From: an archaeon GW2011_AR15
GTDB lineage: Archaea > Nanobdellota > Nanobdellia > Woesearchaeales > GW2011-AR15
NCBI GenBank assembly: GCA_000830295.1
Contig: CP010425.1
Location: 1-35,926, forward strand
Reading direction: 5' to 3'
Length of the DNA stretch: 35,926 nucleotides
This document shows positions 26,709-34,846 of the stretch, piece by piece. Both the position numbers and the translations under genes were made by a program. Positions within the stretch are counted from its first letter, which is position 1; each line of letters opens with the position of its first letter. The notes beneath the pieces are model-generated. The model saw only the letters and a program-made list of their open reading frames with translations, ran no database searches and was not told the origin of the DNA.

Positions 26709-27110
26709 ATGCCGCAGACAGTAACAATTCCTCTTCCGGGAAAGCAACCTGAAAAGTCAGAAGTTCAGGCAGAAATCAGAGATGGCCAGGTATACATAAC
26801 AGGACTGCCTGACGGGCACACTCTTGAATATGTTGCCAGGGATGTTGAAACCAAATCAAAGTTATATGTTGTTCACCGGCCTGAGGAGTTTTCTTTGGAT
26901 GCCTTTAGGCTGCATATAGGAGCAGAAGCAGAATTAGTAGAAGCTCAGGTGCAAAAGGTAAGAAGATATTTTGACGGAGGAACAACACTCATAGATTATA
27001 TTTTAGCAGGCAATCAGGGAGAACTGTATTTCCCGAGTCCAGCATATAAGGATAAAAAACCTAGAGATAGATATCAGGGAAAAACTATAGAATTAGAAAA
27101 ACTAATTTAA
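26709..27110 (+). CDS. beta-rich protein of unknown function
   Basis: 133 aa, no signal or membrane segment, no Cys. Predicted strands alternate through the first half (TVTIPLPG, VYITGLPDGHTLEYVARDVE, KLYVVHRPEEF) and the C-terminus is basic. Not recognised. It ends 10 nt before the end of the convergent regulator gene. Confidence 0.55.
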   Translation: MPQTVTIPLPGKQPEKSEVQAEIRDGQVYITGLPDGHTLEYVARDVETKSKLYVVHRPEEFSLDAFRLHIGAEAELVEAQVQKVRRYFDGGTTLIDYILAGNQGELYFPSPAYKDKKPRDRYQGKTIELEKLI

Positions 27111-27119
27111 AATTATATT

Positions 27120-27527
27120 CTACAACTCCAGCCTATCATCAATCTCTTTGGCAACGTCTCTGAGGCTCTCCATTGTCCTGTAGATGTCGTGCTCAATCTC
27201 TTCCACAAGGTTGGAAAGGCTGTCGACACGGAGCATATACCTGCTCCCCTGGTTTATCACAACGCCTGACTTCATCAGTTTATTCAGGTGGTGGACAACT
27301 GTGCCCCTTGACAGATTAACTTTCTCGGAAATCTCGTCGCTCGTCAGCCCGTCTCCGTGCTTTACTGATCTTAATAAAACTATGGCAGTCCTGAAGCAGC
27401 TCTTATCCTTATCCCTCTCCCCCAATATGCCGAGAGAATCAAAAAACCACTGCAGCTCATCATTCACGTTATCCGCTGCAGGCTTCCTTATCCTGTTGAT
27501 TGTAATCCTGTTGCTCCTGATTATCAT
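27120..27527 (-). CDS. winged-helix (ArsR-like) transcription regulator, candidate heat-shock repressor
   Basis: 135 aa. Central winged helix: SVKHGDGLTSDEISEKVNLSRGTVVHHLNKLMKSGVVINQGSRYMLRV (about 53-100), with the recognition helix SRGTVVHHLNKL, then a C-terminal amphipathic helix that could dimerise. Transcribed divergently from htpX across 153 bp holding two palindromes. Archaeal ArsR-like regulators such as Phr and HSR1 repress heat-shock genes; the position beside htpX, groESL and dnaK suggests the same role, which is inference. Confidence 0.75.
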   Translation of the reverse strand: MIIRSNRITINRIRKPAADNVNDELQWFFDSLGILGERDKDKSCFRTAIVLLRSVKHGDGLTSDEISEKVNLSRGTVVHHLNKLMKSGVVINQGSRYMLRVDSLSNLVEEIEHDIYRTMESLRDVAKEIDDRLEL

Positions 27528-27592
27528 GGCTATAGATTTGCAGCAATAATATATAAACTTTTCCGAAATATTTATAAATTAAATGATTAAAT

Positions 27593-27633
27593 GTTCAACT
27601 TCGTTGAACTAAGCTCAACGAAAACTTTATATA
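27593..27633. promoter_or_regulatory. htpX promoter with overlapping operator palindromes
   Basis: GTTCAAC-TTC-GTTGAAC (27593-27609) overlaps TTCGTTGA-N7-TCAACGAA (27600-27622); both are perfect. The TATA box TTTATATA (27626-27633) follows at once, so a bound repressor would block TBP/TFB. The divergent regulator gene has its own TATA TATATAAA near 27550-27557, with the operator upstream of it. Likely target of the neighbouring winged-helix protein. Confidence 0.6.
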
Positions 27634-27680
27634 GGATTTATGTTTTTACATAGAAAATCGGCATAATTGGGGGTATAACA

Positions 27681-28526
27681 ATGATAAACCAGATAAAAAC
27701 CGTCATGTTATTGGGATTGCTTACAGCATTGCTATTATGGGTAGGCCAGCTGGTGGGAGGAGCATCAGGGCTTACAGCAGCATTTGTAATTGTATTATTG
27801 ATGAACTTCATAATGTACTGGTTCTCTGACAAGATAGTGCTTGCGATGTACAGGGCAAAACCTGCCCATAAGAATTCAGAGCTTTATGCTCTTGTAAAAG
27901 AGACCTCAAAAGAAGCAGGGCTTCCTATGCCAAAAGTATATATGATACCCTCCAACAACCCGAATGCATTTGCAACAGGGAGAAATCCGAAAAACTCTGC
28001 AGTCGCGTGCACAGACGGGATACTTAATTTGCTAAGCAAAGAGGAACTGAAGGGAGTGATTGCACATGAGCTCTCCCATATAAAGAACAGGGACACATTA
28101 ATCACAACAATAGCTGCGACAATAGCAGGAGTGATAGCATATGTGGCAGCAATGGCACGCTGGGCCGCAATATTCGGCGGGTTCGGAGGCAGGGACAGGG
28201 ATGACAATAATATAATCAGCCTTTTGGTGCTTGCAGTACTTACTCCGCTGATTGCAACAATAATCCAGCTTGCGATTTCAAGACAAAGGGAGTATATTGC
28301 TGATGCAACAGCTGCAAAAATAACAAAAAAGCCTGTGCACCTGGCAGATGCCCTCATTAAAATAGAGCAGGGAATCAAGCTTCATCCAATGGCAATGGGA
28401 AGCGAGGCTACAAGCTCATTGTTCATAGCCAACCCATTCAGGGGAGCAGGCCTGCTTAACTTATTTTCAACACACCCTCCTATAAAAGAGAGGGTTGCCA
28501 GATTGAAGGCTATGAAAATTCAGTAA
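27681..28526 (+). CDS. htpX: HtpX membrane protease (M48B)
   Basis: 281 aa zinc metalloprotease that degrades damaged membrane proteins under stress. Two N-terminal membrane helices, catalytic HELSH at 129-133, two more hydrophobic segments after it, and the third zinc ligand in REYIADA. C-terminal THPPIKERVARLKAM is typical. Promoter and operator directly upstream. First gene of the stress run; groES follows after 45 nt. Confidence 0.93.
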   Translation: MINQIKTVMLLGLLTALLLWVGQLVGGASGLTAAFVIVLLMNFIMYWFSDKIVLAMYRAKPAHKNSELYALVKETSKEAGLPMPKVYMIPSNNPNAFATGRNPKNSAVACTDGILNLLSKEELKGVIAHELSHIKNRDTLITTIAATIAGVIAYVAAMARWAAIFGGFGGRDRDDNNIISLLVLAVLTPLIATIIQLAISRQREYIADATAAKITKKPVHLADALIKIEQGIKLHPMAMGSEATSSLFIANPFRGAGLLNLFSTHPPIKERVARLKAMKIQ

Positions 28527-28571
28527 TGTTAACTACAAAATCGAAAAACAATGCGTAAAGGTGATGAAAAA

Positions 28572-28835
28572 ATGAAAATTAAACCATTGGGAGACAGAGT
28601 TTTACTAAAACCAATCGAGGCTGAAGAAAAGACAAAATCAGGCATTTACCTGCCTGAATCAGCAAAGGAAAAGCCTCTGGAGGCAGAAGTTGTTGCAGTT
28701 GGCAAAGGAGAAAAAGTCAATGTCAAGCCAGGCCAGAAGGTAATCTATGAAAGCTTCGGCGGCTCAGAAGTCAGTATCAACGGTGTAAAGCACATAATCC
28801 TGGATGTCAAGGACATCCTTGCAGTTATAGAATAA
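28572..28835 (+). CDS. groES: co-chaperonin GroES
   Basis: 87 aa from ATG 28572, chosen because GGTGAT lies 6 nt upstream; the more upstream ATG would put the Shine-Dalgarno inside the gene. Full GroES pattern: MKIKPLGDRVLLKPIEAEEKTKSGIYLPESAKEK (mobile loop), VVAVGKGEKVNVKPGQKVIYESFGGSEV, ILDVKDILAVIE. Caps the GroEL ring. Bacterial type, paired with group I GroEL downstream. A leader ORF lies between it and groEL. Confidence 0.95.
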   Translation: MKIKPLGDRVLLKPIEAEEKTKSGIYLPESAKEKPLEAEVVAVGKGEKVNVKPGQKVIYESFGGSEVSINGVKHIILDVKDILAVIE

Positions 28836-28845
28836 AAAAATCATG

Positions 28846-30608
<1,763 letters not shown>

Positions 30609-30667: not shown

Positions 30668-31150
30668 ATGGCAAGGAAAAAAGAAGAGAAAAAGCAGGAA
30701 GAAAAGGTTCAGGAAGCAAAAGAGCTGAGCAAGGATGAAGTAATTGCCGAGCTTACTGACATGCTGAAGAGGACCCAGGCTGAATTCATCAACTACAAGA
30801 ACCGGGTTGAGAAGGAAAATAAAGAAGCCTACGAATACTGTTCAGCAGACCTTGTAAAAAAGCTGCTGCCTGTGCTGGACAGCTTTGAGCTGGCCTTCAA
30901 AAATACCGGAGAAGCCGGGAAATTCAGGCAGGGGATGGAGATGGTGTATGCCCAGCTGGTTGATGTGCTTGAGCATGAGGGACTGAGGAGAATAGATGCA
31001 GAAGGAAAGAAATTCGACCCTTACAGGCACGAGGTGCTGATGAAAGACAAGTCAGACAAGAGCCCTGACATCGTGCTTGAGGAATTCCAGAAAGGCTACA
31101 TGTTCAAGAATAAAGTGGCAAGGCATTCAAAAGTGAAGGTGTCAGAGTGA
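30668..31150 (+). CDS. grpE: nucleotide exchange factor GrpE
   Basis: 160 aa. Charged N-terminal coil (KKEEKKQEEKVQEAKELSKDEV), then the dimerising helix RTQAEFINYKNRVEKENKEAYEY, LLPVLDSFELAF and the beta domain FDPYRHEVLMKDKSDKSPDIVLEEFQKGYMFKNKVARHSKVKVSE. Releases ADP from DnaK, which is encoded 1.8 kb downstream. Its TGA overlaps the GTG start of the next gene by 4 nt. Confidence 0.93.
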   Translation: MARKKEEKKQEEKVQEAKELSKDEVIAELTDMLKRTQAEFINYKNRVEKENKEAYEYCSADLVKKLLPVLDSFELAFKNTGEAGKFRQGMEMVYAQLVDVLEHEGLRRIDAEGKKFDPYRHEVLMKDKSDKSPDIVLEEFQKGYMFKNKVARHSKVKVSE

Positions 31151-31725
31151 AGATAAAATATGATACCGCAAAAGAGCAGGTTTTGAAGCTTGTGCACCCG
31201 TGCAAATGCAGAAAATGCGAGAATCCCTGCAGCTACGGCTCAGGGGCTTTTATCGGGGATGAGGCAGAGAAGCTTGCTGAATTTTTGAAGATAACAAAAA
31301 AAGAGGCAGAGGAAAAATACCTCGAGAAAATAGAGAAATTCAACACGACCTTATGGAGGCCGAAAGTCGAGAGGAAGGAAGGCCTTCCTTTCGGGAAGTG
31401 CATTTTTTTCGACAGCGAAAAGGGATGCACAATACACCAAGTAAAGCCTACTGAATGCAGGCTCGCAATGGGCTGCAAGGATTACGGGGAGGACATCATA
31501 ATCTGGTTCATGATGAACCATTACTTCAACCCTGATGACCCGGAGTCAGTAAGGCAGTACAAAATATATGCAGAATCAGGCGGGAAAATACTGGAGGGCG
31601 CAGAGCCTGAGAAGTTCACTCACACAGTGGCAGAAGATTACAAAGACCTGAAACAGGAAAGGGACTGGGAAAGAATCCTTGGAATAAAAGACGCAGAGGC
31701 AAAAGAAAATGGAAAACGCAAATAA
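31147..31725 (+). CDS. YkgJ/UPF0153-type Cys-cluster metal-binding protein
   Basis: 192 aa. Cys pattern PCKCRKCENPCSYGSG near the N-terminus and CIFFDSEKGCTIHQVKPTECRLAMGC in the middle, which together make the family's zinc/iron-chelating centre. Function uncharacterised in the family as far as I know. GTG start overlaps the grpE stop (GTGA), so translation is coupled to grpE. Next gene starts inside its 3' end. Confidence 0.82.
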   Translation: MKIKYDTAKEQVLKLVHPCKCRKCENPCSYGSGAFIGDEAEKLAEFLKITKKEAEEKYLEKIEKFNTTLWRPKVERKEGLPFGKCIFFDSEKGCTIHQVKPTECRLAMGCKDYGEDIIIWFMMNHYFNPDDPESVRQYKIYAESGGKILEGAEPEKFTHTVAEDYKDLKQERDWERILGIKDAEAKENGKRK

Positions 31726-32017
31726 GCAAAAAATGTACCTCAAGCCAGAAGCCATACTGAAATACCTTATGGGAGAGGAAAAGCTTCACACGCTGATTAC
31801 GACACAGAACACAGAAGTAAACCTGATAACTACAGATCAGAGCCTTTACGAGGCACTTGGAAGCGTTGATGACAGGAGCAAGATAAACCTTAACCTGCTT
31901 GTCAAGCTGCTTGAAGTTGTGAAGATTGTGCCCCATGATGAGATGGCAAAAGAGGAGAGGAAAGTGCTGAGCCCTGAGAGGGCAGAAGAGCTCAGGAAGA
32001 GTGTGGAATGGAAATGA
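31709..32017 (+). CDS. small protein of unknown function in the chaperone cluster
   Basis: 102 aa, overlapping its neighbours on both sides (17 nt and about 4-10 nt), so firmly part of one operon. KYLMGEEKLHTLITTQNTEVNLITTDQSLYEALGSV and a helix NLNLLVKLLEVVKIVP vaguely recall part of a PIN-like fold, but no acidic set is complete. Unknown role. Confidence 0.6.
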   Translation: MENANKQKMYLKPEAILKYLMGEEKLHTLITTQNTEVNLITTDQSLYEALGSVDDRSKINLNLLVKLLEVVKIVPHDEMAKEERKVLSPERAEELRKSVEWK

Positions 32018-32820
32018 AAGAGTTTATACTGGAGGTCGCAAAAGAGGTCGGAGAGCTGGCGATGGAATACCTTGGAAAGGCAAAAGTCTCAGACAAGGGT
32101 CCGAAGGATGTTATAACTGAAGCAGACCTTGCAGTAGAGAAGCTCATAATAAAAAAAATCAGGGAGAAATACCCCGGCCACAATATTGTGGCAGAAGAGT
32201 CCACGAATAAAAATTCAGGCTCAAGATACAGATGGTATATTGACCCTATAGACGGCACCCATAATTACGCGCACGGAGACCCGAATTTCGTGGTTTCAAT
32301 AGGAGTGACCGAAGATGGGGAGCTGAAATATGCGTGCATAAATTTCCCGTACATGAAGGACATGTATTACGCAGAAAAAGGAAAGGGCACAGAGCTCAAC
32401 GGAAAAAAAGTCCGTGTCTCAAGAGCCTCAACACCTGACAGGGCAATGATACAGCTCGGCATAAGCCCGCTGAAGGATGCAATTGATGATTCGCTGAAAT
32501 TGTTCAGGTATTTCACAGTGCACTACCTTAAAGCAAGGGATTACGGGTACACTGCGGGACAGATGGCATTTGTTGCTTCAGGGAAGGCAGACGGCTATCT
32601 GAAGATAGGGCAGCATCCGTGGGATGTTGCTGCAGGAATACTGATTATTGAAGAGGCAGGAGGGAAAGTGACTGATTTCAAAGGGAATAAAATAAAACTA
32701 GGCGGGAAATCAGAGCTTTACAACCTGGTTGCCTCAAACGGCCTGTTACATGATCAGCTACTAAAAGAGCTTGACAGCAAAGAGCTGAAGAGCATTGATA
32801 AAAATAAAACATGGTATTGA
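32008..32820 (+). CDS. inositol monophosphatase-family phosphatase
   Basis: 270 aa. Li-sensitive phosphatase superfamily: E in AEEST, metal site DPIDGTHNYAHGDPNFVVSIGV, and HPWDVAAGILIIEEAGGKVTDFKG. In archaea such enzymes act on inositol phosphate or fructose-1,6-bisphosphate (dual IMPase/FBPase); which one is not shown. The first ATG at 32008 and a second at 32014 (overlapping the previous stop as ATGA) are both plausible starts. Confidence 0.88.
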   Translation: MEMKEFILEVAKEVGELAMEYLGKAKVSDKGPKDVITEADLAVEKLIIKKIREKYPGHNIVAEESTNKNSGSRYRWYIDPIDGTHNYAHGDPNFVVSIGVTEDGELKYACINFPYMKDMYYAEKGKGTELNGKKVRVSRASTPDRAMIQLGISPLKDAIDDSLKLFRYFTVHYLKARDYGYTAGQMAFVASGKADGYLKIGQHPWDVAAGILIIEEAGGKVTDFKGNKIKLGGKSELYNLVASNGLLHDQLLKELDSKELKSIDKNKTWY

Positions 32821-32947: not shown

Positions 32948-34846
32948 ATGTCAAAAATAATCGGAATAGACCTAGGAACTTCGAACAGCGCAGCCGCTGT
33001 GCTTGAGGCAGGCAGGCCAAAAATAATCCCCTCAGCAGAGGGGACAACACAGTACGGGAAATCCTTCCCGAGCGTAGTTGCCTTCACAAAAGACGGCCAG
33101 CTGCTTGTGGGAGAGCCTGCAAGAAGGCAGGTAGTGAGCAACCCCGAAAGGACAATCACAAAAGCGAAAAGAAAGATGGGAACATCCCACAAGTACAAGA
33201 TAAACGGCAAGGAATACACGCCGCAGGAAATCTCAGCTTTCATACTCCAGAAGATAAAGAAGGATGCTGAAGCTTATCTCGGAACAAAGGTTGAGAAAGC
33301 AGTAATCACTGTGCCTGCTTATTTTGACGACAACCAGAGACAGGCAACAAAGGATGCCGGAAAGATTGCAGGCCTTGATGTTGTAAGAATAATCAACGAG
33401 CCTACTGCGGCATCTCTTGCATACGGGCTTGACAAGGCAAACCATGAGCACAAGATACTTGTGTTTGATTTAGGGGGAGGAACACTTGACGTCACAATCA
33501 TGGAATTCGGCGAGGGTGTCTTTGAAGTCAAGTCAACTTCAGGAGATACGCAGCTCGGAGGAACAGATATGGATGATGCCCTGCTGAACTTCCTTGCTGA
33601 AGAGTTTGAGAAAAAAGAGGGAGTCAACCTGCTCAAGGACCCTGTTGCGACTGAAAGGCTGAAAGAAGCAGCAGAGAAGGCAAAGATAGAGCTTTCAACA
33701 GTTATGGAAACCGATATGAACCTTCCTTTCATAACAGCGACAAACAAGGGGCCGCTGCATTTCAGCAGGAAGCTGAAAAGGTCAGAGCTGGAAAAGATTA
33801 TAGACCCTATTGTAAATAGATGCAGGAAGCCTCTGGAGCAGGCAGTCAAAGATGCCGGCCTGGGCTTCGGCGAAGTTGACAAGGTCATCCTTGTAGGAGG
33901 GCCGACAAGAATGCCTGTTGTGCAGAAATTTGTCGAGGATGCAGTGGGCAAGAAAGTTGAAAGGGGGGTTGACCCTATGGAATGCGTTGCGCAGGGCGCT
34001 GCAATCCAGGCAGGTGTGCTTGCAGGAGATGTCAAGGATGTGCTGCTGCTGGACGTTACTCCGTTGAGCCTTGGAATTGAAACATTAGGCGGGGTATTTA
34101 CAAAGCTGATAGACAGGAACACCACGATCCCCACAAAAAAATCCCAGGTGTTCAGCACAGCTGCTGACAACCAACCTGCCGTAACAATCAGGGTTGGCCA
34201 GGGGGAAAGGCCCATGTTCAATGACAACAAATTGTTAGGGCAGTTTGACCTTGTCGGAATACCTCCTGCGCCAAGAGGCATACCTCAGATTGAGGTTACT
34301 TTTGACATTGACGCAAACGGCATAGTGAATGTCTCTGCAAAAGACCTCGGGACCAAGAAACAGCAGTCAATAAGGATAACTGCCTCAGAGAAACTCAGCG
34401 ATGAGGACATAGAGAGGATGAAGAAAGACGCAGAAGTCCACGCAGAAGAAGACAAGAAAAAGAAAGAAGAGATAGAAACAATCAACCAGGCAGACACTCT
34501 TGTCTATACAACTGAAAAGCTTTTTGAGGATTTCAAGGGAAAAGTCGATGACAAAAGGCTTGAAGACATCAGAAAAGATGTCGATGAGCTGAAGAAGCTT
34601 CTTGAGCCTGAAAAGAAAGACGTTGACGCAGTAAAGAAAAAGCTGGAAGAAGTCAACAAAAAGGTACAGGAAATGAGCACTGAGATGTACCAGAAGGCAG
34701 CTGCAGAGCAGCAGGCTGCTACAGAAGCATCAGCTGAATCTTCAGGGCAGCCGAAAGCAAAAGGCAGGAAAAAAGAGAAGGTTGTCGATGCCGAGGTTGT
34801 TGACGAAGAAGAGGACGAAAAAGAGAAGAAAGGCAAAAAGAGATAA
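32948..34846 (+). CDS. dnaK: Hsp70 chaperone DnaK
   Basis: 632 aa. Starts [20 protein letters not shown] (phosphate-binding loop 1), [65 protein letters not shown], the linker [22 protein letters not shown] and substrate-binding domain, then a Lys/Glu-rich tail ending KKGKKR rather than the usual EVD-type end. Works with GrpE in this cluster; no dnaJ is in the window. Preceded by the leader at 32826-32947; followed by a T-rich stretch that could terminate. Confidence 0.97.

Follow-up and report, generated by a model that had tools for sequence, protein, structure and literature searches.

A conserved inverted repeat beside a winged-helix regulator gene as the candidate operator of a chaperone regulon in Woesearchaeales

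What purpose is served by the inverted repeats lying between a winged-helix regulator gene and htpX in a woesearchaeotal archaeon, and how far does their influence extend into the chaperone genes that follow? The question arises from a window of 35,926 nucleotides (the whole stretch of DNA that was analysed) from the genome of archaeon GW2011_AR15, which consists of one contig of 1,157,690 bases. A gap of 153 bp separates the minus-strand regulator gene from htpX, and the two repeats are found within it. Our main reading, to which we give a probability of about 80%, is that the site is the operator of the divergent winged-helix protein; judging from the sequence, this protein would bind there, repress transcription and respond to heat, as a repressor of the heat-shock (protein-stress) genes. 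The features of the gap and its left flank are:

27120-27527, minus strand: winged-helix regulator, 135 aa (Pfam HTH_24/HTH_5; orthologues; model pLDDT 89.8)
27550-27557, minus strand: TATA box of the promoter that serves the regulator gene, facing away from P1 (transcript predicted to be leaderless)
27563-27570, plus strand: BRE-like CCGAAATA directly 5' of the P1 TATA box (sequence)
27571-27579, plus strand: P1 TATA box TTTATAAAT, rightward (TATA register across loci; predicted start about 27601)
27583-27599, no strand: putative second, degenerate operator copy, 20 bp upstream (6/10 half-site bases; enrichment at offset -20)
27593-27609, no strand: first inverted repeat of the original prediction, equal to the right half of the degenerate site plus the left half of the primary site
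27600-27622, no strand: second inverted repeat of the original prediction, TTCGTTGA-N7-TCAACGAA, equal to the operator plus three flanking bases per side
27603-27619, no strand: primary candidate operator GTTGAACTAAGCTCAAC (GTTGA-N7-TCAAC; conservation, genome scans)
27626-27633, plus strand: P2 TATA box TTTATATA, just 3' of the operator (TATA pattern; predicted start about 27656)

The original prediction described overlapping perfect palindromes. Both repeats are indeed exact where it placed them, the first as GTTCAAC-N3-GTTGAAC, but their spacers make them interrupted inverted repeats. On composition statistics alone the case for them is modest and not compelling: dinucleotide shuffling of the 153-bp gap yields arms of at least 8 in 262 of 2000 trials (in 6 of 2000 when at least three G/C are demanded in the arm), the whole window contains 14 inverted repeats with such arms, and the full repeat pattern with up to three mismatches occurs once in the window against 0.14 expected. 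It is conservation in relatives that lifts the repeat far above chance. Reading the regulator-adjacent gaps of relatives gave a common core, GTTGA-N7-TCAAC with a TTAA-like centre, from which the pattern searched exactly below was refined as GTTGANNTAANNTCAAC.

In its own genome of 1.16 Mb this refined pattern has a single exact match, the window site, and across 60 genomes of relatives (own included) it matches 63 places in 47 genomes, versus 3 for the reversed control. The 62 of these places whose surroundings were fetched form our defining set, the window being the 63rd. A chaperone or regulator gene stands downstream in 53 of the 62, the targets being mainly grpE-dnaK, hsp20 and groES-groEL; Cdc48 is downstream in two more, and the other seven have no such gene, six of them lying inside open frames. 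The core GTTGA-N7-TCAAC with one mismatch occurs at 48 places of the own genome versus 14 for the control, and the refined pattern with up to two mismatches gives 53 hits versus 27, with all five near matches whose contexts were read inside open frames. The exact core occurs six times in the own genome; besides the window, four places are inside open frames, and for one, at 1040578, no open frame of 100 aa lies closer than 400 bp. The 17 bases of this last place (G000:C1:1040578-1040594, GTTGATATCTTTTCAAC) recur in another genome (G002:C4) and perhaps belong to a conserved RNA gene. Another isolated observation is a site GTTGATATAACTTCAAC at position 2543 of locus L122, right after a TATA box and before a 98-codon open frame without a Pfam match, which may be chance or a new target.

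The association holds in genomes that played no part in defining the pattern. Genomes beyond the first 60 contribute 113 listed places, of which 94 are found a short way upstream of grpE-dnaK, hsp20, groES-groEL, htpX or the regulator gene (88 before a chaperone or protease gene, six before the regulator alone). Targets were called by translated BLAST within 450 bp, a procedure that misses those that are distant or diverged. Of the 19 unassigned places, 17 are inside long open frames. When the centre of the site matches the consensus [CT][TC]TAA[AG]N, all hold-out places are assigned (79/79), and so are the 46 such places of the defining set: 43 by BLAST, two by Cdc48 and one (L150) with grpE at 604 bp from the site. 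A motif that was widespread and unrelated to stress genes had been foreseen as the outcome fatal to the original prediction, and the motif is neither. On this sequence evidence, GTTGA-N7-TCAAC at 27603-27619 is a conserved operator, presumably bound by a protein.

Which protein binds it? In a phylum sample of 279 genomes, the pattern is present in 121 and the regulator, found by profile, in 179; the pattern occurs in 111 of the 179 genomes with the regulator versus 10 of the 100 without it (Fisher 2e-18), and within the order alone in 98/143 versus 4/23 (p 4e-6), values that overstate independence since the sampled genomes are related. The 68 regulator-bearing genomes without an exact match count against our reading, but may reflect degenerate sites or broken assemblies. 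Of the ten regulator-less genomes with the pattern, four have the site before a chaperone gene and the rest have it in open frames. It could be argued that the operator belongs to some other DNA-binding protein, the neighbouring regulator being only linked to it, as four genomes (G045, G191, G262 and G289) keep a true-looking site without a detected regulator; yet the site of G262 is at a contig end, where the regulator may simply be missing, and the strong co-occurrence, the adjacency of gene and site and the invariance of the recognition helix make this quite improbable. The winged-helix protein encoded next to the site is thus the binder that we favor.

This protein scores above the Pfam cut-offs of HTH_24 (32.6 bits) and HTH_5 (31.7 bits), which places it among winged-helix proteins of the ArsR/HTH_24 type. 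It comprises a conserved N-terminal part, the winged helix-turn-helix (residues 43-99) and a C-terminal helix (104-132), and its structural model (mean pLDDT as listed above) shows the winged fold followed by this long helix, which is likely to be a dimerization element. Of the 60 genomes in the relatives set, the own genome among them, 50 have an orthologue; G001, a genome of the window's genus, carries the same gene. Of the relatives with a name among the loci, the nearest is a Candidatus Woesearchaeota MAG contig (L035, JAMPXQ010000018.1), whose protein is 67% identical. Across 31 homologues the recognition-helix region, L-S/T-R-G/A-T-V-V-H-H, is nearly invariant. Most of these aligned homologues also have, by eye, a cysteine in a KSCFR-like motif, for which a redox role is possible. 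A stress gene (hsp20, htpX, groES/groEL, grpE/dnaK or cdc48) lies within about 1.5 kb in 23 of 30 regulator loci, own included, and seven have none within 1.5 kb. The homologue of a Bathyarchaeota locus (L036) has two Hsp20 genes and a thermosome gene as neighbours; in the same locus (1684-2950) a second ArsR-type regulator gene adjoins an Hsp20 gene, possibly a further heat-shock regulator. In the window, a plus-strand open frame of 133 aa without a Pfam match (26709-27110) ends just before the regulator gene. The proposal that the winged-helix protein represses the stress cluster was already part of the original prediction, and the link between motif and chaperones, the co-occurrence and the single site in the own genome make it likely.

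The second repeat had been taken as a sign that the regulator switches between two bound states, the overlapping repeats being alternative dimer sites. Indeed, the window has an exact TCAAC-N3-GTTGA, and in 13 of 46 loci the upstream half retains no fewer than four of its five bases. Nevertheless, a different arrangement is recovered when half-site scores are averaged over offsets: the mean at -20 is 4.96/10 versus 2.75 (z 4.9, 46 loci), and in the hold-out 4.85 versus 2.74 (z 5.1, 82 loci), the next best offsets reaching only z 2.0 and 2.3 respectively. The left half (-20) and the right half (-8) are each enriched, and loci with a poor right half have a left half of equal quality. This fits a complete second site arranged like the first and argues against switching, as does the fact that the N3 arrangement reverses the orientation of the halves. 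We consider switching very unlikely and read the upstream repeat as one half of a second 17-bp site, degenerate and placed two helical turns before the primary one. In the window the right half of this putative copy, TCAAC, is perfect and the left half poor, and the look of overlapping palindromes arises because the perfect half adjoins the primary site. Some loci have two exact sites, spaced 22, 23 or 44 bp.

The promoters tell on which side of the start the operator would act. When loci are read in the direction of the target gene, 40 of 51 carry a TATA box beginning 29-36 bp ahead of the operator, compared with a mean of 3 and a maximum of 9 in shuffles; the hold-out shows this register in 67 of 87 loci, its shuffles giving a mean of 5 and a maximum of 11. 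The original prediction had the repeats just upstream of the htpX TATA box; that box (P2) is present, but P1, on the other side of the operator, is the rightward TATA box conserved across the order. In archaea, the usual distance from TATA box to start places the P1 start near 27601, so that, given the TATA register, the operator is predicted to cover about +1 to +18. An operator over a start predicted in this manner should serve for steric repression, in the way reported for Phr. A box of the P2 type, at +21 to +26 of the operator, is found in 11 of 51 loci (the window and ten others), where the operator touches the BRE; the same protein could conceivably bind upstream of this BRE and activate, for example by recruiting TFB to P2. 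Against such activation, which we hold to be unlikely, stand the absence of P2 from most loci and the fact that the conserved promoter is P1, its predicted start lying under the operator. Where the regulator and its target diverge from one operator, both TATA boxes are in register in 41 of 76 loci; 25 of these 41 have a spacing of 14 bp, and the window has one of 13 bp. The two promoters stand back to back, with space for two BREs and no more.

Another reading would be an RNA thermometer, the repeat working as a hairpin in the 5' leader. The P1 leader does fold into the 8-bp hairpin, but the z of its fold energy is only -1.4, and the core faces the gene in one direction at 34 of 50 loci and in the other at 16; the half-sites are also conserved in sequence and do not covary, a comparison limited by the selection of loci through exact half-sites. 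We find this reading barely credible and retain that of a DNA operator.

The genes downstream of the operator are:

27681-28526, plus strand: htpX, membrane metalloprotease (Peptidase_M48, Pfam)
28551-28835, plus strand: groES (Cpn10, Pfam)
28944-30608, plus strand: groEL (Cpn60, Pfam)
30668-31150, plus strand: grpE (Pfam)
31147-31725, plus strand: CxxCxxCC-domain protein, within the run (Pfam)
32008-32820, plus strand: inositol monophosphatase family, within the run (Pfam)
32948-34846, plus strand: dnaK (HSP70, Pfam)

As the original prediction correctly stated, the motif is absent before groES, grpE and dnaK in the window, and it offered leader hairpins or read-through from htpX to account for their control. 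A simple pattern search of the gaps from htpX to dnaK yields no TATA box pointing rightward; the only two such boxes found near the cluster both adjoin the operator. One operator therefore probably governs the whole run htpX-groES-groEL-grpE-...-dnaK; this anatomy speaks for read-through into groES, grpE and dnaK (and likewise groEL). Leader hairpins, for which there is little support, would be superfluous. Bacterial group I chaperonins and DnaK-DnaJ-GrpE are reported in many Woesearchaeota (PMC8204110). In close relatives hsp20 stands between the operator and htpX; since the own genome yields no HSP20 match, it seems that hsp20 was lost here and the operator kept before htpX. The own-genome Cdc48 gene is present and has no operator nearby (best score 6/10), a point against our reading. 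A short open frame (28844-28965) between groES and groEL has its own ribosome-binding-like site and begins, like GroEL, with MAAKQI. It contains a near-perfect hairpin, GGACTAC...GTAGTCC, and resembles a partial duplication of the start of groEL.

We propose that in unstressed cells a regulator dimer would occupy GTTGA-N7-TCAAC over the P1 start site, where a second dimer, on the degenerate copy 20 bp further upstream (roughly two turns of the helix), would probably assist it. The bound repressor would keep RNA polymerase away from the TBP/TFB complex at the P1 TATA box and would also abut the BRE of P2. Upon stress it would be released, and the chaperone genes would be switched on as one run; the signal could be heat or misfolded protein, through thermal instability of the repressor or its titration by a chaperone, both being possible. 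We lean, by a small measure, toward a broader proposal: that an undescribed archaeal repressor family, separate from Phr and HSR1, runs much of the protein-rescue set (GroES/GroEL, DnaK/GrpE and HtpX of bacterial type, and the archaeal Hsp20 and Cdc48) of a DPANN class through a fixed module, its regulon having shrunk to one operator in the own genome. The module would consist of back-to-back promoters, with TATA boxes mostly 13-16 bp apart and room for just two BREs, and of a tandem pair of dimer sites, spaced by 20 bp and covering the start of the target.

How does this compare with known systems? To our knowledge very few such archaeal regulators are known, and the organisms of this group have apparently not been grown. 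Among openly licensed PMC papers, none announced a heat-shock regulator of Woesearchaeota or other DPANN in its title or the start of its abstract, which is weak evidence of novelty. The best structure match by sequence profile is ST1889 of Sulfolobus tokodaii (2d1h), an Lrs14/Sta1-like winged-helix protein (E 1e-7) for which we found no heat-shock role here, and the Sta1/Lrs14 NCBIfam scores of the regulator are weak, far below the curated cut-offs. The fold search returned general winged-helix matches only; Phr and HSR1 are not among them, which excludes neither, and at E up to 10 no chain named Phr appears among the best 60 of 66 matches listed.

Only Phr and HSR1 are named as archaeal heat-shock regulators in the available part of a review (PMC9133787), and both also appear as such in a second source (PMC10653856). 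In these texts, the Phr site of Pyrococcus furiosus overlaps the transcription start, with targets including hsp20 and an AAA+ ATPase (PMC9133787; PMC10653856), and binding stops polymerase from joining the TBP/TFB complex, through the boxes TTTA (-10), TGGTAA (start) and AAAA (+10) (PMC9133787). Our candidate would resemble Phr as an archaeal heat-shock repressor with hsp20 and an AAA+ ATPase among its targets and with a site overlapping the start, an overlap predicted here from TATA spacing, but differs in its GTTGA-N7-TCAAC site (TGGTAA is absent at 27590-27622) and in including groES-groEL and grpE-dnaK among its targets. HSR1 of Archaeoglobus fulgidus has a palindromic site, CTAAC-N5-GTTAG, with hsp20 downstream in the same operon (PMC9133787). 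The likeness would lie in an archaeal heat-shock regulator with a palindromic site linked to hsp20; the HSR1 site is absent from 27528-27680, and whereas HSR1 has hsp20 in its own operon, the target here is divergent and the own genome without an HSP20 match. The bacterial HrcA-CIRCE system, in which one inverted repeat precedes the groESL and grpE-dnaK operons with the repressor gene beside them, is similar in having an inverted repeat before chaperone operons and an adjoining repressor gene. Still, the CIRCE sequence differs from GTTGA-N7-TCAAC, the HrcA family model is absent from the Pfam matches of the regulator, and the promoter here is archaeal. The regulator family seems undescribed in the papers searched, its operator being unlike the Phr, HSR1 and HrcA sites, and site and gene order set it apart from Phr and HSR1. 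If our reading is true, a question that is directly testable in vitro, it would add to Phr and HSR1 a third, widespread family of archaeal heat-shock regulators with a defined operator, make the regulon predictable in uncultured genomes, and show how bacterial-type chaperones are wired to an archaeal promoter and repressor.
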